DNA from: Chloroflexota bacterium
GTDB taxonomy: Bacteria > Chloroflexota > Dehalococcoidia > JACPQD01
Assembly: GCA_016190665.1 (NCBI GenBank)
Contig: JACPQD010000104.1
Span: 1 to 64,000 of the forward strand
Reading direction: 5' to 3'
Length of the DNA: 64,000 bases
Positions 23,740 to 50,971 of this stretch are shown one piece after another. The notes under the pieces were generated by a model. The model did no database searches. It saw only the letters and a list, made by a program, of their open reading frames with translations, and had not been told where the DNA came from. Positions within the stretch are counted from its first letter, which is position 1, and each line of letters opens with the position of its first letter. A program made the translations under genes and the position numbers.

Positions 23740-24693
23740 CTATGAGACGGAGCAGCTCACCCCAAGCTCCTCGTACCTCTGTCTAACAGCTTCCACCTCC
23801 TCAGGGGAGGGAGACTTGAGGTCTTTGATGAGGTATGGCCTGTCGACGTTGTCGTACTTGCCCATGCCCAGGCGGTGATAGGGCAGAAGCTGAACGGCCA
23901 GGTCTCGACCCAGGGAGCGCACGAAGAGGGCGGTGGCGGTAATGTTAGATAAGGTGTCGTTGAATCCCGGGATCAATGGTATCCGGAAGAGGAGCTCCTT
24001 TGCCTTGCTTGCCGTCAACTTGGCGTTGGTCAGGATCAGCTCGTTGGGCTGGCCGGTGAACTCCCTGTGCAGGTCGGAGTCCATGTGCTTCAGATCGTAC
24101 AGAACGTAGTCGGTGACACTGAGCACTTTCTCCAGTTCTGCTTGGCGGATGTGGCCGGTGGTCTGGATGCAGGTCTGTATGCCCAGCACGTGGCAAGCCT
24201 CGAAGAGGGCCACGACAAAGGGGGCGTGTATAAGGGGCTCCCCGCCGGAGACGGTCACGCCGCCGCCGGAACCATCGAAGAACATCTTGTCCCGGCGCAC
24301 CTTGTCGACGACCTCCGCGAGGGTCATTCCCTTGCCATAAACGGTGAGAGCCTCCTGATAGCATACGGGCACGCACTTGCCGCAGGCGTCGCACTTCGCC
24401 CGGTCGACGGTGATCAGTCCTTCGGTGTCCAGGCTCAGCGCTTCCTGGGGACAGGCTGCGAGACACTTGCCGCATTTGTTGCAGCGCGCCCGAATCACGC
24501 CCAGCTCAAGGTTCGGACTTATCGATTCCGGATTGGAGCACCAGCGACATCTCAAGGGACAGCCCTTGAAAAAGACGGTGGTCCGCAAACCGGGCCCATC
24601 GTGGAGACACAACGTCTGGATATTGAAGACGGTTGCCGACGCCGCCTCGGCGTCAGCCGGAGCTTCAGGCTTAAACACAGCTGATTCGTCCAA
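23740..24693 (-). CDS. glycyl-radical enzyme activating protein (radical SAM, with 2x4Fe-4S insert)
   Basis: GCPLRCRWCSNPES = CxxxCxxC; two clusters CNKCGKCLAACP and CDACGKCVPVC; 'TVSGGEPLIHAPF'. Confidence 0.93.
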   Translation of the reverse strand: MDESAVFKPEAPADAEAASATVFNIQTLCLHDGPGLRTTVFFKGCPLRCRWCSNPESISPNLELGVIRARCNKCGKCLAACPQEALSLDTEGLITVDRAKCDACGKCVPVCYQEALTVYGKGMTLAEVVDKVRRDKMFFDGSGGGVTVSGGEPLIHAPFVVALFEACHVLGIQTCIQTTGHIRQAELEKVLSVTDYVLYDLKHMDSDLHREFTGQPNELILTNAKLTASKAKELLFRIPLIPGFNDTLSNITATALFVRSLGRDLAVQLLPYHRLGMGKYDNVDRPYLIKDLKSPSPEEVEAVRQRYEELGVSCSVS

Positions 24694-26564: not shown

Positions 26565-27134
26565 TCAGGCATGTTCTGGAACAGGCTGAATGAGAGCATC
26601 GATAACCCGGCGCGTCATTTCCTCGGCCTTGGCTGCTTCCTCAGATGGGTCTATCCTCCCCGGCCTGGGTTGAGCGAGTGGCACGATTCTGAGACCGGGA
26701 ACCCCGAGCGCCCGGGCCTGGGAGTGGGCGGCGACGGCGAATCTGTCGTGGACGATGACAGCGCAAGGGAGGCCCTTCTTCTCGAATTCAATGGCGTCGC
26801 GCACGGCGGCCGACGTACAGGAGCCTCAAGCGCCAACGCCAACCACTACCATGTCCGATCTCGTCGCAATCTCTTCGAGTGCTTCCTTTGAGACGCCGAC
26901 GGAGCCTCCTTTTCCTTTCACCCGGCAGATAACGTTTGAGAAGCTCTTTCTCTCCTCGATGCCCCGCTGGAACGCTTCCCAGAAGAAAATCGCAGCGTAA
27001 TGCCCGTTGTAAAGAAGCCCCACCGCCTTGCCATCAGCGGTGGGGAGGTTGGCCGACACCTCCCTCGAAACAACTGCCTGGACTTCGCCCACGGGGTCCA
27101 GCAGGACAAAACCCGTTCCCTGGGTCATGGTCAC
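26565..27134 (-). CDS. UGSC-type selenoprotein, in-frame TGA at 26826-26828 (Sec)
   Basis: Track ORFs 26826..27134 and 26565..26804 share a frame; reading through TGA gives ...VVVGVGA-U-GSCTSAAVRDAIEFEKKGLP...; 189 aa. Confidence 0.88.
26795..26815 (-). promoter_or_regulatory. SECIS-like hairpin, 10 nt after the TGA
   Basis: CGTCGGC-CGCCGT-GC(G)CGACG by eye: 7 bp with one bulge, GU at the 3' side of the loop. Confidence 0.55.
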
Positions 27135-27146
27135 CTACCCGTCTCT

Positions 27147-28250
27147 TCAGCCATTGTTCAGATCCCGGTTGCCTGGCCTCTCGATCTTCCTCGTTTGCAC
27201 CCAACCCCCATAATGTCCCCAACCATGGAGAACGGCGCAGAACGCTCCTGCGGCTCCCCACCCGCCGGCCACCACAAGCACAATGTCCTCCTTACGGCGC
27301 GCCACAGGGATCAGGCCAGTGGGGTCTTCCAGGTTAACCCATTTTGGGAAGTTGAAGTGGACGCGGGCGGCCTTACGTCGCTCTAACGATGTGGTCAGCG
27401 CCACCAGGGCGGCAGGCTTCCGGGCATTCTCGAAAAGGAACGTCCTGACGTCCTCTTTCGAATACGACTCCTGGGCGAGCACGGCGGCGGCCCGTGGGCC
27501 GATGACGATCATGATGTTCCCGCCGGCATGGAGGTTGTTGCTGCCCAGCTTCGCCATGGCGTCCCCTATCCTCATCAGCACTTGCATGGCGGAGCCGGAG
27601 CCGGTGCTGACATGGCTGGGCGCCTCGCCGCCGAAGACGGTTACCGCGCTGTCCTCAGGCTTGAGTCCTCTTTCAACGTGAATGGGCTCCCAGGGGTTGT
27701 CTTCCTGATTCTCAGCGATGCAGAAAGCGTACTCGCCCGGATGGCCCAGCGTCGACCTGTCCATATCCCCGGGAAAGCCGCCGCCGATATTCCACCGGAT
27801 GAGTCTGATGGCTCGTCCCACGGCGCCGTTGGCGCGCGACCCGGAACCGTAGAACACACCGTCCCCGTAGCCGAAGCCCAGCTCCTTTACGATGGGTCCG
27901 CTGACCACCGTGATGGGTGCGGCGTTATGGGTGGTGGTATTCAGGCCGCTGAGGTTGAAATCTTCCGCCAGCATCGCTTCCAGAGCGGCGATAACGACGG
28001 GCACGTGTTCAGGCAGGCAGCCGCCCATGACGCAGTTGATGGCGATCTTCTCCACGGTGGCAATACCGTTCCTCGGGCCGATGGTTCCGATCACCTCTCC
28101 GGGGTCCCGTCCCAGGTATTCGAGCGCCTCCCGTACTTTGTCTTCAGTAGGCAGGACCACGGGCAAGCCGTCGGTCCATCTCCGAGAGTATACTTCCTCC
28201 ACGGCGGCTTCGTAGTCTTTCACTCCGATCCGCGCGGACTTCAGCTCCAA
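27147..28250 (-). CDS. 'DGLP domain' partner protein (uncharacterised)
   Basis: 367 aa; WTDGLPVVLPT, AINCVMGGCLPEHVPVV, NGAVGRAIRLIRWNIGG; homologous to the partner modules of the other five UGSC genes. Confidence 0.8.
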   Translation of the reverse strand: MELKSARIGVKDYEAAVEEVYSRRWTDGLPVVLPTEDKVREALEYLGRDPGEVIGTIGPRNGIATVEKIAINCVMGGCLPEHVPVVIAALEAMLAEDFNLSGLNTTTHNAAPITVVSGPIVKELGFGYGDGVFYGSGSRANGAVGRAIRLIRWNIGGGFPGDMDRSTLGHPGEYAFCIAENQEDNPWEPIHVERGLKPEDSAVTVFGGEAPSHVSTGSGSAMQVLMRIGDAMAKLGSNNLHAGGNIMIVIGPRAAAVLAQESYSKEDVRTFLFENARKPAALVALTTSLERRKAARVHFNFPKWVNLEDPTGLIPVARRKEDIVLVVAGGWGAAGAFCAVLHGWGHYGGWVQTRKIERPGNRDLNNG

Positions 28251-28331: not shown

Positions 28332-30761
28332 CTACAGAGACTGTTCGGTGCGACTAATTATCTCGTCTTGCACCTCGGGCGTCAAGTTCACGAAATAGGC
28401 GCTATAGCCAGCCACGCGCACCACCAGGTCCTTGTGTTTCTCCGGGTGTTTCTTTGCCTCCAGAAGCACCTTCTTGTCGATGAAGTTGAACTGCACATGA
28501 AGGCCGCCGTTGCCAATGAAGGTGCGCGTCAGGGCGGCTATCTTCTGCATGGTCTCCGGGTTCTGCACCACGGTGAGGGGAAACTTCTGGTTCAGGATGC
28601 CCACCATGGCCTCGGTGAAATCGGCCTTGATGGCCGAATTGAGCACCGCCGTGGGTCCGTTTCTGTCCATGCCGTTCATCGGCGAGAGCGAGCCATCGGC
28701 GAAGGGAGCGCGCGCCTTGCGGCCGTTGGGGAATGCCCCCACTCCTTTGCCTCCGGAGTAGTGCCAGGAAACCCCATTGCGATTGACGCTATGGGGGTAG
28801 CCGAAGCAGTTTTTCTGCGTGGTGACAAACTTGCCACTGAACTTGGCCACGTCCCGCAGCACGTAGTCCGCCTCATCGATGTCGTTGCCGTATTTCGGAG
28901 CGGCCAGGCACATACGGCGGATCTCCTCTCCCCTCTCGCCGGCGAAGTCGGAATCCAGGGCGTCCAGCAGTTCCCCCATAGTCAGCTTCCTGTCCTCGAA
29001 GACGAGCTTCTTGACGGCCGTCAGGGAGTCGCCTACATCGACCAGCGCGCGGTCCTTGTTGTGCCAGAGAGGATAGGCCTCCGCGCCGCCAGTGAGGTGG
29101 CTCTTGCCGTTCCTGATGGTGGCGGAGTCCAGGGCGGAACGCAGGGGCATCCGGAAGACCTGCATCGAAGCCAGATGCATCAGGTTCTGAATCCGGAAGA
29201 GCCTGCCAAAGACGAACTCATACTGCTTGTGGTAGGCGTCGACAAGCTCGTCGAAGGACTTGAAAGTCCTGGGGTCGCCCGTCTGGGGGCCGATCTGCTT
29301 GCCGCTGAGCGGCGACACGCCATTATGCAGCGCCAAGTCCAGAGGCACGGCGGTGTTCATCTGCAATGGGTTGTAGTGGCCGTAGTCAGGCACCACCGGC
29401 TGGGAGCAGCCCACCACTCCCCAGTCACGGGCCACCTCCAGTGGTATGCCCTTCTTGCACATGACGTCGATGACATGCTTGTCGTTGAGGTACATCGGGA
29501 TGCCGTTAACCTTCTGGTTGGTCTCCAGGCACTTCTCCATAAGCCAGTCCGGCGTCCCCTCATGCAAACGGACCGTGGCGTGGGGTTCCGCATATCTCAG
29601 TTGGCCCAGAACATGGAGCATGAGATGGGTCAGCTCGTTGGCGCCCTCGACCCCATCCCGGTTCACACCGCCGAGGGTTATGTGGTTTATCATCGTGGCC
29701 TGATGGCCCTCGCGGCCGTGCTGTGCGGCGCGTATCTGCTCCAGGCGCGCTACGTAGGTGATGAAGTCACCGAGGATGTCAGCCGCCTTCTCCAGGGTGA
29801 TCCGCCCTTCCTCGATGTCCCTCTTGAAATAGGGATACAGGAACATGTCCATTCTGCCCAGGTCATTGCCCTTGCGAGCGTTCTCCATGATCAGGGCGGA
29901 ATGGGTCAGGCGGAACGACACCACGGCCTCGAGGAAGGTGCGAGCGGATTTCTCCGGGACCCAGTCACAGGCAGTGGCGAGGTCTTCCAGTTCCTGGCGC
30001 CTCGCGGGGTCCGTCTCCCTGGCAGCCATCTCACGGGCCAACCGGGCGTAGCGGTGGGCGTAGTCTATCACGGCCTGGCAGGCGATGATGGTGCCTTGCC
30101 AGAAGTATAGCTTGTCCGGGTCGTGTTCGTTGCTCGCGCGGAAGGACGCCATGGCCTCCTCCGCTTCCCTGATGATGCCGCCCAGGCCGACGCGGACCAG
30201 TTTCTCCCACATGGGCAGGCCGGGCAAATAGGGCACCTCCTCGTAGCGGGGCGAGCTGGCCCGTATCTCCATCGCATCGTCATACCAGTCGCCGTAGACC
30301 GCCTTGGCCATCTCCAGAGCGGCCTCCGCCGGGGTGCGCCCCTTGAAATAGGCCGCGGCCTCCTTGCAGGCCTCCCAGTCCTCGGCGGACATGTTCCCCA
30401 CCTCGGCCGGGCCTCCGAAGGTCACCTTATTTCCCTCGACGACGTGCTCGAAATAAGTCCCGTTCCAGTCGATGTAGGGCGCGCTGCCACGGAAAAAGCG
30501 AGTTTGGCTGCCCGGAGTCAACTCTCCGTCAAAAATGACCAGAGGCATGCCTTCCAGGACTGCTTTCAGCTTCTTGGCGCTCCGCAGGTCGATGGGCTCG
30601 CCCTCAGTCTCGCGCAACGACTTCACGGACAGCTTCAGACGCTCGGCGCAGACCTGGGGCGCCTCCTCGAAATACTTGGCCCGAAGCTTCTGGAGCCTTA
30701 GGCTCATGGGCAGCGCGTCAATTTGCCTTCTCAGTTCTGCTGGGCTGGTAGCGGTGATCAT
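28332..30761 (-). CDS. glycyl radical enzyme (PFL-like family)
   Basis: 809 aa; C-terminal RVAGYSAYFVNL Gly-radical loop (Gly codon 28407-28409); Cys loop VVGCSQPVVP (Cys codon 29406-29408). Confidence 0.93.
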   Translation of the reverse strand: MITATSPAELRRQIDALPMSLRLQKLRAKYFEEAPQVCAERLKLSVKSLRETEGEPIDLRSAKKLKAVLEGMPLVIFDGELTPGSQTRFFRGSAPYIDWNGTYFEHVVEGNKVTFGGPAEVGNMSAEDWEACKEAAAYFKGRTPAEAALEMAKAVYGDWYDDAMEIRASSPRYEEVPYLPGLPMWEKLVRVGLGGIIREAEEAMASFRASNEHDPDKLYFWQGTIIACQAVIDYAHRYARLAREMAARETDPARRQELEDLATACDWVPEKSARTFLEAVVSFRLTHSALIMENARKGNDLGRMDMFLYPYFKRDIEEGRITLEKAADILGDFITYVARLEQIRAAQHGREGHQATMINHITLGGVNRDGVEGANELTHLMLHVLGQLRYAEPHATVRLHEGTPDWLMEKCLETNQKVNGIPMYLNDKHVIDVMCKKGIPLEVARDWGVVGCSQPVVPDYGHYNPLQMNTAVPLDLALHNGVSPLSGKQIGPQTGDPRTFKSFDELVDAYHKQYEFVFGRLFRIQNLMHLASMQVFRMPLRSALDSATIRNGKSHLTGGAEAYPLWHNKDRALVDVGDSLTAVKKLVFEDRKLTMGELLDALDSDFAGERGEEIRRMCLAAPKYGNDIDEADYVLRDVAKFSGKFVTTQKNCFGYPHSVNRNGVSWHYSGGKGVGAFPNGRKARAPFADGSLSPMNGMDRNGPTAVLNSAIKADFTEAMVGILNQKFPLTVVQNPETMQKIAALTRTFIGNGGLHVQFNFIDKKVLLEAKKHPEKHKDLVVRVAGYSAYFVNLTPEVQDEIISRTEQSL

Positions 30762-31089: not shown

Positions 31090-32724
31090 CTATTTCGCCA
31101 GCCAGGTCTCCACGTGCTTGTACGAGTTCCAGGCGCCGACGGGTGCGGGGTAATTCCTGACGATTTCCCAAATGCCCATGGTCCACATGCCACCCTTAAG
31201 GCTTGGCACCACCGGCAGAAGTTCGAACAGGCGGGAGTGAATGTTGCCTACCAGCCTCTTGCGTTCTTCAAAGTCCAGAATCCTCGACTGCGCTTTCGCC
31301 CATTCTTCCAGTTGCTCATCCCGTAGGGTTGCGTTCCCGAGAATGTTTTCGAGCCAAGCCGTGGGATCATCCGCATCCACTCCCCAGCTATCGAACAGCA
31401 ACTCATACGCCTGGCGGGTCTTGCGGTCTTGCCAAACGGCGGTCTCCAGGATTTCCAGCTTCAAGTCTATGCCGACGGCACCATACTGATCCCGCAGCAC
31501 TTCAGATGCTTGGGCGTGAATGCTGCGCGAAGGCATAGTCAAGGTGAGACCCCTGTCATAGCCAGCCTCGGCCAGCAGCTTCTTGGCCTCCTCAATATCG
31601 GCCGCCTTGTTCGGCCGATATCCGGGCATCTTCAAGATCTCGGCATTCGGAAGGTCCCACTTGCCGTGGGGTTCCGGCAGGAAGAAGGTGGCCAGGATGC
31701 CTTCTCCCCCAAAGGCGACCTTGATGAAATTAGGGCGGTCGATGGCCAGGTGAAGGGCCCGCCGAACCCTGACGTCGCTCAGGGGTTTGTGAGAGACATT
31801 AATGAGGACATATGTGTTGCTCATGCCAACATACCGCAATGGTCTAGCTTTTCCCTTGAGCTCCCGCTCGGTAATCTCTGCCGTAACCGGGTTCAGCCCA
31901 CCCGCCGCCAGCGAGGTAAGCAGCACTCTTCCTGTTCGGAAGGCGGCAAACCCAGTGGCAGGGTCGGTGATGATGTAGAACATAAGTCCGTCCAAATAGG
32001 GACGACCCTTGACGAAATAGTCCTTGTTCTTTGCATATTCAATGCTTGCCCCGGGATAGTAATTGGTGAACCTGAAAGGCCCCGTGCCGAGGACTGTCTT
32101 CTTCATGTCACCCTTCTCCTCCACCACTTTCTTGGGATAGATGACGTGGTGGCTGAGGGCCAGGCCGCCCAGCAAGCTAGCATCGGGGTACTTGGTGACT
32201 ATTTTGACTGTGTTGGCGTCTGGCGTCTCGATCCTATCGACGGAGGCTAGCAAAGCCTTCCTGGGGCTCTGTACGCCCCTCGGAGGGTTGCGCAGCCTGT
32301 CGAGGTTGTACCGTACATCTTCCGCCGTGAGGAGGGTGCCGTCGTGGAACTTTACCCCTTTATTGAGGTAGAACATGTATTCCAGCCCGTCCTTGCTCAT
32401 TTCGTACCTCTCAGCAAGGACATTAATGATTTCACTCTGGTTAAGGGGATTGTATCCCAACAGAGCGTCGTAGGCCGGGATGGCGACCGCGCGCGTGGCC
32501 GCCAGTTGTTGCTGGTGCAGGTCGAAGCCGGGAGGCTCCAGATACGCGCGTATGGGGAGGATGCCGCCATATCTTGGCTTTTCCTCTGTTGCTTTCACCG
32601 TGGGCGTTGGCGCCCCAACCAAGGAGTCTTGGGCGGCTGGGACCGCAGACGGGGCGCAGCTTGCCACTAACAAGCTCACCACGGCTAACAGGCCCGCTAT
32701 CAGCAACCATCTCTTTGTCCTCAC
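31090..32724 (-). CDS. ABC transporter substrate-binding lipoprotein, family 5
   Basis: Lipobox LVASCAPSA; YGGIL; 'FYLNKGVKFHDGTLL'. Confidence 0.9.
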   Translation of the reverse strand: MRTKRWLLIAGLLAVVSLLVASCAPSAVPAAQDSLVGAPTPTVKATEEKPRYGGILPIRAYLEPPGFDLHQQQLAATRAVAIPAYDALLGYNPLNQSEIINVLAERYEMSKDGLEYMFYLNKGVKFHDGTLLTAEDVRYNLDRLRNPPRGVQSPRKALLASVDRIETPDANTVKIVTKYPDASLLGGLALSHHVIYPKKVVEEKGDMKKTVLGTGPFRFTNYYPGASIEYAKNKDYFVKGRPYLDGLMFYIITDPATGFAAFRTGRVLLTSLAAGGLNPVTAEITERELKGKARPLRYVGMSNTYVLINVSHKPLSDVRVRRALHLAIDRPNFIKVAFGGEGILATFFLPEPHGKWDLPNAEILKMPGYRPNKAADIEEAKKLLAEAGYDRGLTLTMPSRSIHAQASEVLRDQYGAVGIDLKLEILETAVWQDRKTRQAYELLFDSWGVDADDPTAWLENILGNATLRDEQLEEWAKAQSRILDFEERKRLVGNIHSRLFELLPVVPSLKGGMWTMGIWEIVRNYPAPVGAWNSYKHVETWLAK

Positions 32725-32800: not shown

Positions 32801-33385
32801 CTATGGATTAGCGGCCTGCACCATCTCCTTGGAGCCAGTCAGCACCTCGACCACTCGCTCGATGGCATCATCGGCGTATCGCTCTATCGTTGCCTGAGGC
32901 ATTCCGCCTATCGGATGCGGCACTTTGACTATGGGGAGAGTGGGCCGGCCAAGCATCTTCACTTGAGCCCGTGCGAGCCTCTCGAAGACGTCCGTGCAGA
33001 AAGTGACTACTGGAAGCCCTCGTTTCTCCAGCTCTATTGCAGCGTGGGCACCCCACGTTGTGCAGGCGCCTCAGTCGCCTATACCATTGAGAACGAAATC
33101 GCACTTCTCTGACAGCTCTTTGAGCATTCCCTCGGCGATGGCCCCTCCGGGATGTCTCAGCATCCAGGGTAAGCTGCCCACGCCAAAGGCCTCTTTCAGC
33201 CTTTTTTCGACTCGCGCCAGCAGGATATCGCCCCCGGGCTTGTAGTTGTATAGAACAACCATCGACTTGCCACGCAGGCTGTCGATTCTCGGCGCGGCAG
33301 GCAGCTCTGGCACCGCAGTCTTGACCCCAGCGGGATTGTGGACCCTAACCATTTCTTTGGGCATGTCGTTGCTCCTTCCGGACAT
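32801..33385 (-). CDS. UGSC-type selenoprotein, in-frame TGA at 33071-33073 (Sec)
   Basis: Track ORF ends ...FVLNGIGD; readthrough gives U-GACTTWGAHAAIELEKRGLPVVTF...KEMVQAANP, stop TAG 32801-32803; 194 aa; shares 1 nt with upstream gene (TAATG). Confidence 0.88.
33043..33057 (-). promoter_or_regulatory. SECIS-like hairpin, 13 nt after the TGA
   Basis: CGTGGG-GTG-CCCACG: 6-bp perfect stem with GU in the loop; flanking TGCA/TGCA can extend it. Confidence 0.6.
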
Positions 33386-34452
33386 TACTTCTTGGGCAGG
33401 CGTATCGGCTTGGTGACTGGATGAGCTCTGGTTATGGCGCCCATGAAAGCGGAATGCTTTCCTGGACCGCCGAGCACCAGGATAGTGATATCCTCGGGCT
33501 TCAGTGCGACCGGTACACGGCCGTCGTCGTCAATGTGAATGCCGGTCAGCTCGAGTTGCTGCTTTCGCCACGGCCCCAGCTCCGGCCCATAATAGCTGAG
33601 CGGCAGCCCAGCATGATCAAGGACGAACTGGCGAACCATGGCCTTGGTGTAGCCTCCGCGAGCGACGACCTCCGCATGCTCGGGACAAAAGGCGAGAATA
33701 GAGTCGGCGAATAACATAGTGTTCCCGTTGCCTAAGGGGCTCATGGCATGGCTCAACGTGGTTAACACGCCGACGGCCGTAGTGCTGCTCCGTTCCAGCA
33801 CGTCGTGCGGGCAATCGGCCGGGAAAACGGTTACGACGTTATCTCCCTTCTCGTAGCCCTTCTCTACGTGAAGCGGTTCCCAGGGACTTTGCTCCTCATT
33901 CTCCCCCACGCAAAACGTATACTTGCTGGGCATCCCCGTAGTGGAGAGGTCGAGTATGCCGGGCGTGGCGCCTCCGACGTTAAGCATGATGAGGCGTAAC
34001 GCCCGGCCGATGGTGGCGTTGGCGCGCCAGCCCGGCCCGAAGCAGTTGCTGCGACAGTTGATGTTCAAGTCTTTGCGGATTGGGCCATTCACCACAATGA
34101 GGGGAGCCGCTCCGTGAGTGGTAGCTTGCAGGCCGTGCAAATTGAACTCGCCTTCCGTTATCGCTTCCACGGCGGCGACGACCACAGGCAGGTATTCGGG
34201 AAGGCACCCGGCCATCACCGCATTGATCGCGACCTTCTGAACAGTAGCATCCGCCCAGATTGGCGGGATCTTCCCGAGCACCTCGGACGGACTGCGGTCG
34301 GCGCCCAAAAGCATCGCTTCCACCGCCTCGTCGACAGGCGGCGCAATGGGCAGGCCGTCGGTCCAGCCCTGTTCTTGAAACAAGTTGTTTATGGTCTGGA
34401 AGTCGTTCTCCACCAGGAAACTGGGTTGCTCAACGGCCACTCGGTGGGTCAT
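33385..34452 (-). CDS. 'DGLP domain' partner protein
   Basis: 355 aa; WTDGLPIAPPV, AINAVMAGCLPEYLPVVVAAVEA, RANATIGRALRLIMLNVGG. Confidence 0.8.
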   Translation of the reverse strand: MTHRVAVEQPSFLVENDFQTINNLFQEQGWTDGLPIAPPVDEAVEAMLLGADRSPSEVLGKIPPIWADATVQKVAINAVMAGCLPEYLPVVVAAVEAITEGEFNLHGLQATTHGAAPLIVVNGPIRKDLNINCRSNCFGPGWRANATIGRALRLIMLNVGGATPGILDLSTTGMPSKYTFCVGENEEQSPWEPLHVEKGYEKGDNVVTVFPADCPHDVLERSSTTAVGVLTTLSHAMSPLGNGNTMLFADSILAFCPEHAEVVARGGYTKAMVRQFVLDHAGLPLSYYGPELGPWRKQQLELTGIHIDDDGRVPVALKPEDITILVLGGPGKHSAFMGAITRAHPVTKPIRLPKK

Positions 34453-34557: not shown

Positions 34558-36372
34558 CTACATGGCGGGAAGCGGACCCAGGTCCTCTCCAGCCTGTTTG
34601 ATCAGCTCGCTCCAATTCGTGGGCAGCTTGATTTCCTTGCTTATGGGCTCGAACTTGCCCGAGTATCCCGTCTGCATCCAGTAGCCGTGTCCCGACTGAT
34701 CACCTCCAGCAACGACTATCATGAAGTTCTCCGGTCTGCTCGTTATCGGGCAGGGATCGGGAGACCCTGCCTCTGGCGGTTTGTAGTTACCCAGGTCACG
34801 CCACGGGACTTTTGTATGCTGCCACAAGAAGGCTTTCACCTTTTCCTTGGTCCAACCTAGATTTGCCAGCGGTCCAGCGGCAAAGCGTCCCAATAGCACA
34901 ACTCCAGGTATATTGTATGCGTGACGCCAATTCCCGCTATGCCTCATGTATGCCGCCATGCTCGTCAGCGTCTTTAACGTAGCCTCCTCGGTGGTTGTTC
35001 TCACGCAGTTCAGGTTGTTGGTACCGGCGACAGCAACGACGGTCACCACGTTGCTCTCTCTGGAGAAACCGCGCTCCACGTGTAGGGGCGCCCAGGGGCT
35101 ACCATCCTCATCCTCGGCGAAAACGACATTGGCATACCTGGCCGGCCCCCCATATAGCGACATGCTTCCTGACCCTGGAACGGCTCCGCCCGCAGTAAGG
35201 AAGAGTAGTCTGAGAGCCCGTCCAATCGTGGCGCCCGCCGGATGCTTTGGGTCCGGGCCCAGACAGCCGTACCTTGAGTTGAGGCGGATTTGCCTGGCCG
35301 CCGGTCCGTTGACAATCACCACGGGATAGACGCTGCAGGTGGTTGAATTCATCCTCTCATGGTGGAATCGAGGGTCGGCGATGGCCTCCACCGCAGCGAT
35401 CAAAGTTGGCAAGTACTCGGGACGACCTCCGGCCATGGCAAGGTTGACAGCGATTATTTCTATAGTGGCTATTCCACCTCTGGGCAGGATCTTGGCCACC
35501 ACCTTGTCATGAGGAAGGTCTGCGCCTGTCAGTATCCAATCAACTGACTCTTTTGTTGCCGGCTGGATGGGCAGTCCATCAGCCCAGGAGTTCCTGAGGA
35601 ACAGGTTATTCATTCTAGCAATAGCTTCCCTGTAGTCTCTGCCCTGAACCGTCACCTTCGGCGGTGTGTGAGTCTTCTTCGCTCCGCTGCCGGGCCTCCA
35701 TCTGGTTAGCCCGAAGACAATCTTGTCGATATTCTGCTCAAGTGGGGTTAGATCACTACCGGGCAGGAACATTTCGATGGGGAATTCGAACACGGTTGGA
35801 GCCTCGGCCGGGAATCCAAGGTTGGCAAACGCGTTAGACACGGCTCGTGGAAAGCCTCTACGTGTGACCACTGTCGAAGGTATTCCGAGTTTCTCGACTC
35901 TTGCGGCGGCCCGACCGGCTGCTGTTGAGCAACCACCTCAACCGGCGTTGCCGACGATGACAGCCTGGCATCCCTTCCGCTTCACAATCTCACTAATGTC
36001 GTCAATGTCAATCTCGTCATTCCCGATAGGGAACTCGGTGTAGGGGATGGTCCGCACATCGGGGAAGCCTTTCCGGAGCGCCTCCCGCATCAGAGAAAAC
36101 GTCCTGTCAGCCTCCCACACTCCGTTTGACAACTCGCAAATCGTTTTGCCTCCCAGAGTATCAAGACGGGGTGCGTGGACCTCGGGCACGTCAAAAGCGC
36201 CGGTCGGGTCGTAGAGCTCCAGTGTCACTGGGCCTGCAGCATTTGGCGCCTCCTTGACTGCTCGCGCGGCGGGTTGAGTTGTTGATGCTGGTTCCATTGC
36301 CGGCTTCTCCCAAAATCCGTTCTTACCTTTTCTTCCTTCCCCTGTCGCAGGAACGACGGGCACGTGTGCCAT
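34558..36372 (-). CDS. fused UGSC-DGLP selenoprotein, in-frame TGA at 35938-35940 (Sec)
   Basis: ORFs 35938..36372 and 34558..35871 share a frame; readthrough ...VIVGNAG-U-GGCSTAAGRAAARVEKLGIPSTVVTRRGFP...; 604 aa, ADGLPIQPA partner motif in the C-terminal part. Confidence 0.87.
35906..35922 (-). promoter_or_regulatory. SECIS-like hairpin, 15 nt after the TGA
   Basis: GCAGCC-GGTCG-GGCCGC: 6-position stem with one A.C mismatch, loop GGUCG. Confidence 0.5.
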
Positions 36373-36458: not shown

Positions 36459-37514
36459 TCACCGTATGAGTTTCGTCACAGCATGGGTGACCTGGGTGGA
36501 GCAGCCCGGGATGTAAGCGCAATGCCCTCCCGCGCCGCCGGCAACCACGATGTGCATGTCCTCAACACGGTTGGCGCAGGGGATGTAAGTATCGGCGTTC
36601 AGCTCTCCAACTACGCGTCTTACGTCCATGAACTCCATCACTGGCTCGTTGATGATCGCCTCGGCGACCTCTGGAGTGAAGCCAGACACCCTGAGCCTGG
36701 CGTTCTCAAAGAGGTATCGTCTGGCGTCCTCTTTCGAGTAGCCATCCCTCGCGATAAGTCTGGCGTGCTCAGGACAAATGATGATCAACGCCCAACCATG
36801 CCGGGGGCTGCCGCCGATGGCCATCATTCGGGCAAGGCCGGCCAGGAACTCCCGTCCGGTTGCCGCGTAGGGTCGGATATTAGAGTTGCCCCCGGCGCCG
36901 AAAGCGGTCACAGTGCTCGAGTCAGCACTGAAGCCGAGGTCATGATGGAATGCGGGCCAGGGACTTTCGTCCTCGCTCTCGGCAAGGCAGAAGGAATACC
37001 TTCCCGGCTGCCCCTGGGTGGCGCGGTCAGTGTCTCCCGCCAGTCCTCCGCCCACATTTATCATGATGAGCCTCAAGCAGCGTCCAATGGTGGCATTGGC
37101 GCGGTTACCTTCCCCCAGGCAATTATAGCCACTGTTAATGTGGAGCTTCTTGGCCACGGGACCGTTGACAAGAAAGAGAGGAGTAATGGGGTTAGTCGTA
37201 GTTTGTATTCCGTAAAGGTTAAAGCCCTCCTCAACAATCGCCTGCACGGCGGCAATGACGACTGGCAAGTATTCAGGCAAGCACCCCGCCATGACGGCGT
37301 TCGCCGCAATCTTCTCGACAGTAGCAACTCCCTGCTTTGGCGCTACAAGACCTATTACTTCCTGGGGGTCTCGATCCACTGCCTCCAGCATTCGTTGCAC
37401 CCTCTCCACCGTCGGAGGGATGATCGGCAATCCGTCGGTCATCCTCTCGCGATAGAAGATCTCGTTGATCTCCTCCAGGGAGTCAGGCGTCCGCACTCTG
37501 TCTGTGATCGCCAT
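36459..37514 (-). CDS. 'DGLP domain' partner protein
   Basis: 351 aa; MTDGLPIIPPT, AANAVMAGCLPEYLPVVIAAVQA, RANATIGRCLRLIMINVGG. Confidence 0.8.
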   Translation of the reverse strand: MAITDRVRTPDSLEEINEIFYRERMTDGLPIIPPTVERVQRMLEAVDRDPQEVIGLVAPKQGVATVEKIAANAVMAGCLPEYLPVVIAAVQAIVEEGFNLYGIQTTTNPITPLFLVNGPVAKKLHINSGYNCLGEGNRANATIGRCLRLIMINVGGGLAGDTDRATQGQPGRYSFCLAESEDESPWPAFHHDLGFSADSSTVTAFGAGGNSNIRPYAATGREFLAGLARMMAIGGSPRHGWALIIICPEHARLIARDGYSKEDARRYLFENARLRVSGFTPEVAEAIINEPVMEFMDVRRVVGELNADTYIPCANRVEDMHIVVAGGAGGHCAYIPGCSTQVTHAVTKLIR

Positions 37515-37528
37515 CTCTCAATTCCTTC

Positions 37529-38095
37529 CTATGAGGGGATAGGTTCAGCCGTGGCCCGGGTCAACCCGGAGACGACGGCGCCGAACACTCCGGCGGCCCT
37601 CTCCTTTACATCGTCCCGGGTCAGACCACTCCAACTGTACGGATGGGGTATGGTAACAATGTTGAGGTTCGGCATGCCCAGGGTCTTTGCCAGACCGCGG
37701 GCCAGGGGCGCAAACTCCGTGGTGGTGATGAGCACCGTCGGTTTGCCCCTCTTCTCGAACTCCAGCGCATCGCGGAGACTCCACGATGTGCACCCTCCTC
37801 AGTCCCCCAAGCCAATCACCATGGCATCGCACTTGTCCGCCATCTCCTGCACCAGTTCCTTCGGGGCAGGCCGTGGGACCACGGGCTTCTTCCTCTGAAC
37901 AGCCTCAAGGGAAGGATACTCCCCAACGAGCAATTCCTCCAGGTCGACTAGAAACAAATGGAAATTGGACTTGCCGTTATTGAGCAGGCCGATCACCTTG
38001 CCATCCAGGCCGGCCAGCCGCGGAGATATGCCCCCCTGGCTGACCTGGGGCTTGCCCCTGGGATCCACTAGCTCTACGAATCGAACTTCAGCCAT
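37529..38095 (-). CDS. UGSC-type selenoprotein, in-frame TGA at 37799-37801 (Sec)
   Basis: ...AMVIGLGD-U-GGCTSWSLRDALEFEKRGKPTVLITTTEFAP...; start chosen at MAEVRF (ATG 38093-38095, GGGGG upstream); 188 aa. Confidence 0.87.
37768..37788 (-). promoter_or_regulatory. SECIS-like hairpin, 10 nt after the TGA
   Basis: CATCGTGG-AGTCT-CCGCGATG: 8-bp stem with one G.U, loop AGUCU. Confidence 0.65.
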
Positions 38096-40009: not shown

Positions 40010-41776
40010 TCAGTATCCCGGGCCTAATTCCTTTTCAGCCTTTTTCAGCAGTTCCTCCCACTTGGCGGGCAGCCTTATCTCCCTGGTTTGGGGGACCACG
40101 CCACTGCTGCCGTGCTGCATCCAGTAGCTGTGCCCCGAGTGCTCTCCCCCGGCGACTGCAATCCTAATGTCCTCAGGAGTCATTGTCAAAGGATAAGGGT
40201 ATTGCACGGCATCTGCGGGCATCACGCCATTGGCAACGTCCAGTTCCAGTTGCCATCTGAGAGCGGGGGAATCAGCGATTCTCGCCTTCTCCCACAGGTA
40301 GGTCTTCACTCTGGTCTTAGACCAACCCGATCTTGACAACTCCCTGGCAATGCCGCGGGGTACGAGCAACAGGCCAGCATCCTGACCGGGCGTGTAAGCG
40401 CCCTCTATATAATTCTTACTCGGATTGCTCATGTGGCCGGCGTACCCCTCGAGGGCGTTCATCATCGATTTCTCAATCGGGGGTTGGGCCTTAGCCATGA
40501 TGCAGATATTGCTCGTGCTGCTGACGTTGAAGACAGTGACAGTGTTGCTGCCTCGAGGGAAGCCACGTTCCACATTGAGCGGCTCCCAGTCCGCAGGAAG
40601 CCCATCTTCGTCCTCAGCAAAGACGATATTGGTATACCTGGCCGGGCCGCCGAATATTGCCATGCTACCTGTGCCGGGGAGACTCCCGCCAACATTCATC
40701 ATAAGCAGTCGGATGGCCCGTCCAATGCTGGCCCCCGCAGGATGCCTTGGATCCGGACCCAGGGCGCCGTAGCCTGAGTTGAGGCGGACCTGCTTGGCCA
40801 CCGGTCCATTCACCACGACTGCTGGATAGGCGGAGCAGGTGGTCGCGTTCATGTGCTGGTGTTTGAATCCCCGCTCCATGATTGCCTCTACTGCCGCTAC
40901 TAGGACCGGCAGATACTCCGGCCGGCCTCCAGCCATAGCAAGGGCAATGGCCAGCATCTCGATGCTCGCCATTCCACCGCGGGGGAGTATCCTACCTTCA
41001 CCTATTATGGTTTCCCGGGGAAGGTCCGTTCCCGTTAGCAGCCACTCAACTCGCTCCTCCGTAGGTGGTTGGATCGGCAGACCGTCTCCCCAGAGGTTCC
41101 TTAGGAACAGGCTGTTCATATTGTCAACAGCTTCTTGATAGTTCTTGCCTTGAACCCTTATTCTCTTTGCCGGATAGTATATTCCCTTGGCCCTTACCTT
41201 CGGCTGCCAAACGGTCAACCCTTCAATGATCTGTTCTAAGTTCTCCCTGATCGGAGTCAAGTCACCAGCCGGCCAAAACATCGCGTGGGGGAAAACGAAC
41301 TGGGAGGCCTCACGCGAAAACCCGGAGCCCGCGAAAGCGTTACCTACGACCCTTTCAAAGCCTTCTCGTGTGACGCTGAAGGTAGGTATGCCCAGCCTCT
41401 CCACCCTGGCGAGGGCACGGCCAACGGCCGTCGCGCACCCCCCTCAGGCGGAGTTTCCACCTATGACTGCCTGGCATCCTTTTTCCTGCATTACTTCGCC
41501 AATCTTGTCAACATCAATAAGATTGCGTCCCACTGGAAACTCGGTATAGGGGACAATCGTCGCATCCGGAAATCGCGCGCGCAGAAGTTCCCTGATCAGC
41601 GGAAATGTACGGGAGGCCTCCCACAGCACGTTGGATAGTTCACAAATCGTTTTGCCGCTCAGCCCATCGAGTCGAGGGGCATGCATTTGGGTCGCCCCAA
41701 GAGCGCCTGTGGGATCAAAGACTTCCAGGTTCATCTGACCACGTTCCCCCCAAACGTCGAATTTCCTCACCAACAT
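40010..41776 (-). CDS. fused UGSC-DGLP selenoprotein, in-frame TGA at 41444-41446 (Sec)
   Basis: ORFs 41444..41776 and 40010..41404 share a frame; ...VIGGNSA-U-GGCATAVGRALARVERLGIPTFSVTREGF...; 588 aa; terminal stop is also TGA. Confidence 0.87.
41417..41431 (-). promoter_or_regulatory. SECIS-like hairpin, 12 nt after the TGA
   Basis: ACGGCC-GTT-GGCCGT: 6-bp perfect stem, GU in the loop. Confidence 0.6.
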
Positions 41777-46814: not shown

Positions 46815-49238
46815 TTACAGTGACTGCTCGGTCCGGCTGATGATCTCATCCTGCACCTCGGGTGTCAGGTTCACAAAGTAGGCGCTGTAACCGGCCACCC
46901 GCACCACCAGATCCCGGTAACGCTCAGGATGTTTCTTGGCGTCGAGGAGAACGTTCCTGTCGACGAAGTTATACTGGATGTGAATGCCTCCGTTTGCGAT
47001 GAAGCTGCCCGTCAAGGCGGAAATCTTCTGCATGATCTCCCGATTCTGCACAACAGTTACGGGGAACTTCTGGTTCAAGATGGCCACTAGGGCCTCACTG
47101 AAATCGGCTTTGATTGCAGAGTTGAGGACGGCGGTGGGGCCACTCCTATCCATACCGTTCATCGGGGATAGAGAACCATCTGCAAAGGGCGCCCGCGCCT
47201 GACGGCCATTAGGCAATGCCCCTACGCCCTTCCCAGCCGCGTAATGCCAGGCAACCCCGTTGCGATTAATGCTATACGGGTAGCCAAAGCAGTTCTTCTC
47301 GGATAGGATTATGCTCGCGCTGAATTTGGCGACGTCCCGTAGCATGTAGTCGACCTCGTCCATATCATTCCCGTATTTCGGAGCCTCCAAACACAGGCGT
47401 CGGATTTGCTCACCCTTCTCGCCCGCGAAATTGGAATCGAGCGCATCCAACAGCTCGCCCATGGTCAGCTTCTTGTCATCGAAGACGAGTTTCTTTATTG
47501 CCATTAACGAATCGCCTACGTCGACCAGGCCGCGGTCCTTCATATGCCACAAAGGATAGTAGTCAGAGCCTCCCACCAGATGGCTTTTCCCATTCTCCAT
47601 AGCCCCCTTATCCAGCGCCGAACGCAGAGGCATTCTGAAGCGTTCCACTTCAGCAAGATGCATCAGTCGCTGCAGTCTGAGCATTCTCCTGAAGATAAAC
47701 TCATGCTGTTTCCGGTAGGCATCGTACATTTCGTCGAAGGTCTGGAAGTCTCTCGGATCTCCGGTTGAGATGCCTACTTTTCTCCCTGTAAGTGGAGAGA
47801 CGCCATTGTGCAGCGCCAAATCCAGGGGCACAACGGCGTTTATTTGCATCCCCAGATAATGACCCCGGAGCGGCACCACTGGTTGGGAACAGCCCACGAC
47901 CGCCCAGTCGCGGGCCTCCTCCAGGGGGACACCCTTCCGTTGAATGGTCTCTGTTACGTGCTTGTCATTCAAGTACATGGGGATGCCGTTCACTCTTTGA
48001 TTCGTCTCAAGTGCCTTCGCTCTTATCCATTGCGGCGTGGCTTCATGGAGCCGGAGCGTAGCATGCGGCTCGGCATATCTCAGCAGCCCCAGTACATGCA
48101 GAATGAGATAGGTCAACTCGTTGCAGGCATCTCGCCCGTCCGCTGATGTGCCACCCAGAGTGATATGGTTTATCATGGTGGCCTGGTGCTGTTCTCGACC
48201 TCTTAGGTCCTTGATCTGTTCCAGGCGCGCGACATATGTGATAAAGCTACCGAGTATATCTGCGGCCTTCTCCAGAGTTACGCGACCCTCGTCTAGATCG
48301 TCCTTGAAGTAGGGATACCAAAGCTGGTCCATCCTTCCAAGGTCAGCGCCTTTGCGGCCATTCTCCAGGAGGAGAGCCACATGGGTCAGACGGATAGACT
48401 GGACGGCTTCGTGCAAGGTCCTGGGTGGGTTTTCCGGCACCCATTGACAAGCATCGGCTATTTCTTCCAGCTCTTTGCGTCTCGCTGGATCAGGCTCCTT
48501 GGAAGCGAGCTCCCAAGCCAGTCGGGCATGCCTATGAGCGAACTCCACCACCGCCTTGCAGACAATGGTCACCGCCTGCCAGAAGTAAATCTTCTCGGGG
48601 TCGTGTTCGTTGCCTTTCCGGAAGCGGTCCATCGCTGTCTCGGCGTCGCGGATGATGCCTTTCATGCCCGCCTCGAGCACCCTGCCCCACATCGGTACCC
48701 CGGGCAGGTACGGCTGTTCCTCCTGGCGGAGATTCAACACACGTACGGCGCAGGCATCATCGTACCAATCACCCCATAACGTTCTTGTTATCTCTCTGGC
48801 TGCTTCCGCAGGAGCCTTTCCCTTAAAGTAGGCAGCGGCTTCTTTACAAATCTGCCAGTCCTCATCCGCCATGTCCCCCACCTGCGCCGGGCCGCCAAAA
48901 GTCACCTTGCGTCCGTCCACCACTTTGTCAAAGTACTCGCCATTCCAGTCGATGTAAGGAGCACAGCCACGAAAGAAGCGACTCTGGTTGCCAGCCGTCG
49001 CATCTCCCTTGTGGAAAACAATGGGCACGCCCTCGAGTATCCTCTTCAGCTTCTTCGCGCTCCTGATCTCGACCGGCTCTCCTTCCGACTCCTTCCAAGC
49101 CAGGAGAGCGTACCTGAGCCGTTGGGCGCAGACTTGGGGTCCCTCTTGGAAGTACGTCGCCCTGAGCCTTTGGACACGTGGACTTAGCTCCAAGGCATCA
49201 ATAAGGTCCCGCACGCCTTCTGTCACGATGGGAATCAT
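46815..49238 (-). CDS. glycyl radical enzyme (PFL-like family), paralog of 28332..30761
   Basis: RVAGYSAYFVNLTPEVQDEIISRTEQSL (Gly codon 46890-46892); VVGCSQPVVP (Cys codon 47889-47891); start chosen at MIPIV with GGAGG upstream. Confidence 0.93.
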   Translation of the reverse strand: MIPIVTEGVRDLIDALELSPRVQRLRATYFQEGPQVCAQRLRYALLAWKESEGEPVEIRSAKKLKRILEGVPIVFHKGDATAGNQSRFFRGCAPYIDWNGEYFDKVVDGRKVTFGGPAQVGDMADEDWQICKEAAAYFKGKAPAEAAREITRTLWGDWYDDACAVRVLNLRQEEQPYLPGVPMWGRVLEAGMKGIIRDAETAMDRFRKGNEHDPEKIYFWQAVTIVCKAVVEFAHRHARLAWELASKEPDPARRKELEEIADACQWVPENPPRTLHEAVQSIRLTHVALLLENGRKGADLGRMDQLWYPYFKDDLDEGRVTLEKAADILGSFITYVARLEQIKDLRGREQHQATMINHITLGGTSADGRDACNELTYLILHVLGLLRYAEPHATLRLHEATPQWIRAKALETNQRVNGIPMYLNDKHVTETIQRKGVPLEEARDWAVVGCSQPVVPLRGHYLGMQINAVVPLDLALHNGVSPLTGRKVGISTGDPRDFQTFDEMYDAYRKQHEFIFRRMLRLQRLMHLAEVERFRMPLRSALDKGAMENGKSHLVGGSDYYPLWHMKDRGLVDVGDSLMAIKKLVFDDKKLTMGELLDALDSNFAGEKGEQIRRLCLEAPKYGNDMDEVDYMLRDVAKFSASIILSEKNCFGYPYSINRNGVAWHYAAGKGVGALPNGRQARAPFADGSLSPMNGMDRSGPTAVLNSAIKADFSEALVAILNQKFPVTVVQNREIMQKISALTGSFIANGGIHIQYNFVDRNVLLDAKKHPERYRDLVVRVAGYSAYFVNLTPEVQDEIISRTEQSL

Positions 49239-49240
49239 TG

Positions 49241-50971
49241 TCACTTTCCTCCAGAACGCAGAAGCTCTTCCCACCTGTCTGGCAACACTATCCGCCTGCT
49301 CACAGGCGGCCCCTGTTGGTGATTCTGCACGAATCCCTTGCTCTGGTTCCTACCTGGATCTCCGCTCACGACAATGTTTATCCATTCAGGCCTCAAGAAC
49401 ACCGGGACCATCCTGTTTGGGTCCGTAGATTGACAAAAGTCCCTGGATAGCCTGCCCTCCTCTACGCACTTGCAGAAGTTGAAAACCGTGGGCCCCCCTC
49501 CCCATGCCAGTTTCTCCAACACCCCCGCTGACTCCTGCGCATTATCGTATAAATACTGACGTACGTTATCTTTTGTCCATCCACCGTTGGCTATCACCGA
49601 TGCCACATTGGGACTAAACACGAATAGCGGGTGGAACCTACCGTAATGTGCTGCAGGGGCTGTCTTATACGCCATTGACCGCCGCCCGATGAACTCGGCG
49701 ATTGTTTCCAGATGGTCGAGGGGAGTATCTCCGCCGCTGTTGATAGGCGGGCTCATGCTTATCACACTCTGTACGGTAATCACATTCTCTCCGGCCTTGA
49801 ACCCCCGGTCAACACTGAAGGGCTGCCAGCCCATCTCTGTGACAGCGTCCTCATTCTCTGCCAGGACCACATTAAACGTATATCCGTAGGTAGCTTTGTC
49901 GGTTGCCCCGGGCGGTATTCTCAAGCCGGCGACATTCCTCATGTATAGCCTCAGGAAACGTCCGACACTAGTGTTGGCCTGTCTCCCCACCCGCGTTACG
50001 CCTGCTGCGCAATTGAAATCCAGTTGCTTGATGACCGGGCCGTTCAGGATGATCAGCGGTTCCCAACCTGGAGTGCTGCCAGCATGCTCTATACCAAACT
50101 CCGGGTCCGCAATCGACTCGACTGCGGCCACTAGCAATGGCATATACTCAGGACGGCATCCTGCCAAGACACCATTTACGGCCACATTCAGAATTGTGGC
50201 CTCACGATTCTCAGGCAAGAGCACCCCAAGGACTTCATCCGGTGATCGATCAGTAAAGCTCAGGAACTTCTCAACCATATCTACCGTTGGTGGTATTATG
50301 GGCAGTCCATCAGTCCACAGATTCTCGTAAAAGTACTCCTGGACCTCCTGCAGTGTTCCCCTGAACACGATGTCCCTCGGCCTTGGTTCAACCGGCTTTA
50401 CGGCATCCTCGACTGGCTTGGTTAGTCCCTCAATAATACTATCTATGAGAACCCCTTCAACCTTCCTCCGCAACTGCTCTTCGTTATCTGTCATGATTAC
50501 GCCAGGGTATTCAGCAATAGCAAGGTTCTGTGCACCCAGTGACTTTGCTATCGCCTGCGCCTGTCGAAGAAAGGCCGTGGCCGCTATCGATACGCTGCGA
50601 ACGCCACCCTTCTCAGCCATCGCACTTGCCCGCACCACCGCGGGCGTGCAACTCCCTCAGTGGCCAATGCCAGAGACGACCGCGTCGCACCCATGTTTGC
50701 GAAGCAGGTCAGGCAAGGCTGCCGCCGCAGAGCTATGCGTGTTACCGAATGCTGAATAGTCAACAAACCTGATACCGGGGTATCGCTTTGACAACACATC
50801 CCGAACTATGGAGAAAATCTGGTCTCCCTTGAAAAGCCAGTCCCATAGCTCGCAGATAGTTTTCCCATTTAGGTCTGCAGAACGGCTGGCGAGAGGTATT
50901 ATCTCGTAAACCGACCTGCCAAGTGGCCACATTACCTCGTACACCGGCTGTACCATGCATGCCCTCCTCAA
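49241..50971 (-). CDS. fused UGSC-DGLP selenoprotein, in-frame TGA at 50657-50659 (Sec)
   Basis: ORFs 50657..50971 and 49241..50638 share a frame; ...AVVSGIGH-U-GSCTPAVVRASAMAEKGGVRSV...; 576 aa; terminal stop is also TGA (49241-49243). Confidence 0.87.
50628..50645 (-). promoter_or_regulatory. SECIS-like hairpin, 11 nt after the TGA
   Basis: GCCCGC-GGTGGT-GCGGGC: 6-bp perfect stem; outer GCAC/GTGC extends it across an AA bulge; GU in loop. Confidence 0.65.

Follow-up and report, generated by a model that had tools for sequence, protein, structure and literature searches.

In the 64,000-nt stretch of Chloroflexota DNA analysed here (hereafter, the window), a 104-aa ORF on the minus strand (33071-33385) ends at a TGA beyond which the reading frame continues, and the question raised by this locus is whether the codon is a stop or encodes selenocysteine (Sec) and, in the latter case, what such a selenoprotein does in its host. 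The original prediction favoured Sec in a gene of the UGSC family, and its description of the locus is largely borne out: the in-frame TGA is present on the minus strand, the ORF runs on through it to a TAG, the product consists of 104 residues, Sec and 89 further residues as claimed, and the predicted motif VLNGIGD-U is found, extending to VLNGIGD-U-GACTTWGAH around U105 (Table 1). Some details need amendment. The gene had been called split, which is right in so far as UGSC and its upstream partner are two genes and not a fusion, but the UGSC gene itself is a single gene. The partner stop TAA (33385-33387) does overlap the ATG of the ORF (33383-33385) in the sequence TAATG, and the tight coupling that was proposed stands; however, because a strong Shine-Dalgarno sequence, GGAAGGAG, lies just ahead of a second ATG (33362-33364), the latter is the likelier start, so that translation probably begins ~20 nt past the partner stop (187 aa, MPKEMVRV...) rather than at the one-base overlap. 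Finally, UGAC had been regarded as a rare variant of the motif, which does not hold in this genome, where UGSC occurs 67 times, UGAC 35, UGGC 33, UGTC 24 and UGNC 4 times.

Table 1. Features of the locus and the other UGSC genes of the window (all on the minus strand)
Feature	Position	Strand	Remarks
UGSC-family selenoprotein gene	32801..33385	-	194 aa with read-through, counted from the ORF ATG; TAG 32801-32803
In-frame TGA read as Sec (U105, motif UGAC)	33071..33073	-	TGA column shared by 168 paralogues; named relatives have Cys or TGA
SECIS-type hairpin CGTGG-GGTGC-CCACG	33043..33057	-	5 bp stem, 5-nt loop, G first and U third in the loop
Shine-Dalgarno-like GGAAGGAG	33372..33379	-	7 nt before ATG 33362-33364; from the sequence itself
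Partner gene	33385..34452	-	355 aa; obligate companion of UGSC
SBP_bac_5 ABC-transporter substrate-binding protein	31090..32724	-	Directly downstream; PF00496, 253 bits
Second UGSC selenoprotein gene (domain)	26592..27104	-	TGA 26826-26828; partner 27147-28250
Third, UGSC-partner fusion	34558..36372	-	TGA 35938-35940 (UGGC)
Fourth UGSC gene	37529..38095	-	TGA 37799-37801 (UGGC); partner 36459-37514
Fifth, UGSC-partner fusion	40010..41446	-	Span from TGA 41444-41446 to the stop
Sixth, UGSC-partner fusion	49241..50941	-	TGA 50657-50659

Evidence for selenocysteine at the in-frame TGA

The homology search that had been proposed as a check gave a clear answer. The read-through product matches the PF24696 (UGSC) profile with 144.4 bits over residues 15-183, i.e., on both sides of U105, against a curated cut-off of 25, which places it in the family, and UGAC at U105 falls on the U/C-G-x-C motif of the aligned active site; with C in place of U the product scores 122.4 bits against NF041046, just below the cut-off of 125. 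A lack of UGSC homology after the TGA, the outcome that was to count against the prediction, was not seen. Conservation of the residues after the TGA points the same way. Over 79 codons, amino-acid identity to the three nearest paralogues is 67-76%, and the nucleotide changes at codon positions 1/2/3 number 13/14/49, 18/13/38 and 11/8/41, a third-position bias that also holds when related pairs are pooled. Because identity is kept and the changes are mostly in the third position, the segment is translated and under selection; judging by its substitutions, it evolves as coding DNA under strong purifying selection.

Among named plasmid records, the TGA column is occupied by Cys in Natrinema zhouii and Halorientalis litorea (archaea), Arthrobacter, Embleya and Variovorax, and by TGA in Acidovorax, Paracoccus ferrooxidans and Microthrix; in P. 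ferrooxidans selB lies ~4.5 kb from the TGA-form gene. The partner adjoins the Cys-form gene in Natrinema, Halorientalis, Arthrobacter and Embleya and is fused to it in Variovorax. A contig search with the read-through protein alone returned a single locus, in Microthrix, and none of the phage records carries a UGSC gene. The genome of our bacterium encodes SelA (568 bits) and SelB (353 bits), each single and full-length, and a SelD that itself has a TGA for its active-site residue (Sec in the conserved GUAAK site).

Downstream of the TGA, a hairpin of the SECIS type starts 13 nt past the codon, with its loop 18 nt past it. When a stem of at least 5 bp, a G in the first two loop positions and the expected distance after the TGA were used as the definition, such a hairpin was found in 152 of 166 paralogues, whereas 200 synonymous recodings averaged 33 and never exceeded 52, and control windows of the same paralogues gave 19-45. 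The minimum free energy in the hairpin window is lower than with synonymous codons (z -0.94 +/- 0.08), with z at about 0 elsewhere, and the paralogous stems occur in alternative compensated forms that pair in register (CGTGG/CCACG, CCGCG/CGCGG, CGTGC/GCGCG). Folded alone, the hairpin at 33043-33057 is not significant by dinucleotide shuffling. Similar hairpins are present in three of five Cys homologues and two of six paralogues with another residue in place of Sec; protein constraint alone can thus yield hairpins like SECIS, and therefore the synonymous control is the fair test. By this test there is RNA-level selection for the hairpin after the TGA.

Tested as a bacterial selenoprotein gene, the locus accordingly shows an in-frame UGA flanked on either side by homologous sequence, homologues with Cys and a 3' SECIS hairpin, and the genome has SelA, SelB and SelD; we put the probability that TGA 33071-33073 encodes Sec, and that the gene is a selenoprotein gene as originally predicted, at roughly 0.9. 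The main weakness of the Sec reading is the tRNA. Searches of the draft assembly for a tRNA-Sec gene (selC) by RF01852, by a covariance model specific to the class and by three patterns, with part of the candidates scored, found none, and neither did ARAGORN or a descriptor script on the sampled part of the genome; the candidate matches are tRNA-Ser, -Leu or -Tyr or chance. Many relatives in the class have a canonical tRNA-Sec of ~95 nt. Two incomplete genomes of the class that carry UGSC-TGA genes (G005 and G009) likewise gave no tRNA-Sec above the cut-off. Given a draft assembly of 107 contigs (96.6% complete, 6.1% estimated contamination), we treat the missing tRNA-Sec as a gap rather than an absence; it may also be that all UGSC UGAs are decoded by a tRNA-Sec too unusual for standard models.

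The missing tRNA would also suit a general or context-free reassignment of TGA to another amino acid, an explanation to which we give hardly any weight, as the homologous residue is Cys, Sec machinery and SECIS hairpins are present, only 3 other in-frame TGAs occur across all 174 UGSC domains of the genome, and global reassignment is rejected because 39 of 166 UGSC genes have TGA as their final stop, i.e., the codon is also a real stop. It is also possible to read the TGA as a genuine stop or a frozen nonsense mutation, with the downstream half being pseudogene remains or a separately started ORF. The missing tRNA and the insignificance of the single-gene hairpin would agree with this, but 168 paralogues and relatives from other phyla share a TGA at this column, the position is Cys in haloarchaeal and other homologues, and purifying selection after the TGA, the excess of SECIS hairpins and the presence of selA, selB and selD all speak against it. 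A stop is in the main refuted by the Cys homologues and the post-TGA conservation, and we consider it very improbable.

Expansion of the UGSC family in one genome

The Sec-encoding gene is one of a very large set. A PF24696 profile search of the genome gave at least 150 matches (the best 150 of 208 candidates). From 1.58 Mb chosen around such matches, a profile built from this DNA converged on 173 UGSC ORFs with 174 domains, of which 166 have TGA at the conserved column, none Cys and six Ser, Gly or Gln, two being truncated; the recurrence of TGA at a single alignment column in 166 ORFs is far beyond chance. A further 0.65 Mb added two more Sec UGSC genes. The resulting count of 168 UGSC genes with TGA at the exact column, as opposed to six carrying Ser, Gly or Gln and no case of Cys, comes from 2.23 of 5.0 Mb, or about 45% of the assembly, and is a lower bound. 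The tree of the copies implies about four losses of Sec, none of them to Cys, and about eleven changes between the fused and the split arrangement. The six non-Sec paralogues (L058, L068, L071, L093, L094 and L122) have lost the second Cys of the motif as well (e.g., SGVY) and are likely to be inactive forms or to have a different function.

A metagenome bin can inflate such a count if several strains or species were merged, in which case no single organism would carry 168 copies, and the 107 contigs and the 6.1% estimated contamination leave some room for this. The copies themselves are not strain duplicates, because the median identity to the nearest paralogue is 70% and only 2 of 166 have a paralogue above 90%; the mean pairwise identity is 31.5%. 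The copies are spread over 46 contigs, and two single contigs of ~350 kb each, the window's contig (C99) and C9, hold 25 and 21 of them, respectively. GC content is uniform over the sampled contigs (0.585-0.632), and SelA and SelB are each present once and in full length. Strain redundancy as the source of the copy number is rejected by the paralogue identities and the per-contig counts, and an assembly artefact in the wider sense appears improbable to us.

Within the same class, 54 of 197 sampled genomes have any match at E <= 1e-20, and in the other class genomes every UGSC match among the matches listed contains one TGA. Candidate counts reach 207 in the genome studied here and 50, 35, 23 and 21 in the next four (G027, G044, G021 and G045, of the same class). 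At most a few dozen selenoprotein genes per bacterial genome have been reported, the largest published sets being 57 in the Olavius algarvensis Delta 1 symbiont and 63 in a Methylomirabilota MAG (2026 review, PMC13188914). These are likewise large sets, and the 63-gene case is likewise metagenome-assembled; our genome differs from them in having, in about 45% of its assembly, at least 168 selenoprotein genes of one family, plus SelD. We consider it likely that the catabolism of one bacterium is built on ~170-200 paralogous selenoenzymes, all of which have a partner domain and in many cases an SBP_bac_5 import protein of their own; this would be the largest known selenoproteome by about threefold. 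What is new is the scale of the expansion, for which we found no equal in the literature; the family, the motif and even the fusion of UGSC were already known (PMC2398784).

The partner, the neighbourhood and a possible function

In the 1.58 Mb, 173 UGSC ORFs are accompanied by 174 partner ORFs (about 1:1) and 219 SBP_bac_5 ORFs. A partner of ~350 aa is fused or adjacent to each UGSC domain: 118 pairs are fused, 115 of them with UGSC first, and most others are adjacent. The partner at 33385-34452 belongs to no Pfam or NCBIfam family, and Pfam and PDB sequence searches gave chance matches only. SBP_bac_5 proteins stand beside most pairs, and their expansion matches that of UGSC in size, the two being interleaved. 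A sample of 116 neighbour proteins includes ABC permeases, class III CoA-transferases, glycyl radical enzymes, 2-hydroxyacid dehydrogenases and LUD and HMGL-like proteins, giving a picture of many small catabolic operons. In the window, which has six Sec-UGSC genes in total, two glycyl radical enzymes (PFL-like; 28332-30761 and 46815-49274) and a radical SAM protein with ferredoxin domains (23740-24693), likely their activase, lie among the UGSC genes, and glycyl radical enzymes near other UGSC genes match sulfopropanediol dehydratase and choline lyase models. These enzymes point to anaerobic catabolism. The best functional clue is a plasmid of Arthrobacter sp. ERGS1:01 (L236, 2636-5810) with the gene row trxB-trxA-partner-UGSC(Cys).

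AlphaFold models of UGSC and of the partner are both confident, with a pLDDT of 92. In the UGSC model a parallel alpha/beta domain is best matched by azoreductases and other flavodoxin-like proteins (E about 1e-4, TM about 0.4), and Sec is placed directly after a strand, at the start of a helix; the predicted fold is flavodoxin-like and not thioredoxin-like. The only fold match of the partner, class I fumarase alpha, is weak and poorly superposed (TM about 0.25). Weak profile matches of UGSC to GrdB, GrdF, GrdH and PrdB centre on Sec (20 of 60 members for GrdB, 14 of 60 for PrdB).

These data are best explained by a scheme in which SelB inserts Sec at TGA 33071-33073 through the SECIS hairpin just 3' of the codon, and the UGSC product is the Sec subunit of a two-part enzyme together with the ~350-aa partner encoded upstream. 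The U-x-x-C at the helix start of the flavodoxin-like alpha/beta domain may serve as the catalytic selenol-thiol pair of a reductase, re-reduced by thioredoxin-type donors. The substrate would be a small organic compound that the neighbouring SBP_bac_5 system imports and that the partner helps to bind; the paralogues would differ in substrate and work in the manner of the Stickland reductases GrdB and PrdB. We give about an even chance to UGSC and its partner being such a thiol-fed, two-part Sec reductase for imported organic compounds, a reading suggested by the weak Grd/PrdB profile matches on Sec and by the Arthrobacter pair after trxB-trxA, and also favoured by the flavodoxin-like model and the catabolic and ABC-transport neighbours. 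The likeness to GrdB, GrdF, GrdH and PrdB comprises the weak profile similarity around Sec, the U-x-x-C pair and the Cys-form relative beside trxB-trxA; in contrast, UGSC scores far under the family cut-offs (26.9 bits against 602 for the GrdB profile) and differs in length and partner, and no GrdA-, GrdC/D- or PrdA-like genes were recognised by Pfam around the locus.

The alternative that survives best is that UGSC and its partner form a lyase or hydratase assisted by Sec, or a redox-stress protein, and that the resemblance to Stickland enzymes is that of a shared Sec motif only. The fumarase match of the partner is to a hydro-lyase, many lyases and CoA-transferases are found among the neighbours, and a Trx-like redox protein was what the study of ocean (GOS) metagenomes had assumed UGSC to be (Zhang and Gladyshev 2008, PMC2398784). 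Against this stand the U-x-x-C pair in surroundings like those of GrdB and PrdB, the trxB-trxA neighbourhood in Arthrobacter and the flavodoxin-like rather than Trx-like fold of the model. This alternative remains a serious, if tentative, contender that in our view falls somewhat short of even odds.

No biochemistry for any UGSC protein was found in the literature. The proteins described here share with the known family (PF24696/NF041046, PMC2398784) the domain, the U-x-x-C motif and the exchange of Sec and Cys. They differ in that a single genome has at least 168 Sec copies, all paired with a partner domain and commonly next to an SBP_bac_5 protein, in that UGAC, UGGC and UGTC are here as normal as UGSC, and in the predicted fold, which is flavodoxin-like and not thioredoxin-like. 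In ocean metagenomes UGSC was found fused to an unnamed domain, "Unknown_1" (PMC2398784), which we equate with the partner domain from its description only.

Sec is a costly amino acid. A genome with at least 168 Sec genes, nearly all of one unstudied family and none with an active-site Cys, means that a large family of catabolic enzymes with diversified substrates can be built around Sec. With standard gene callers, well over 100 enzymes of such a genome are cut short or missed. The many natural pairs of UGSC and partner beside transporters and pathway enzymes that hint at their substrates make the function of UGSC directly testable.
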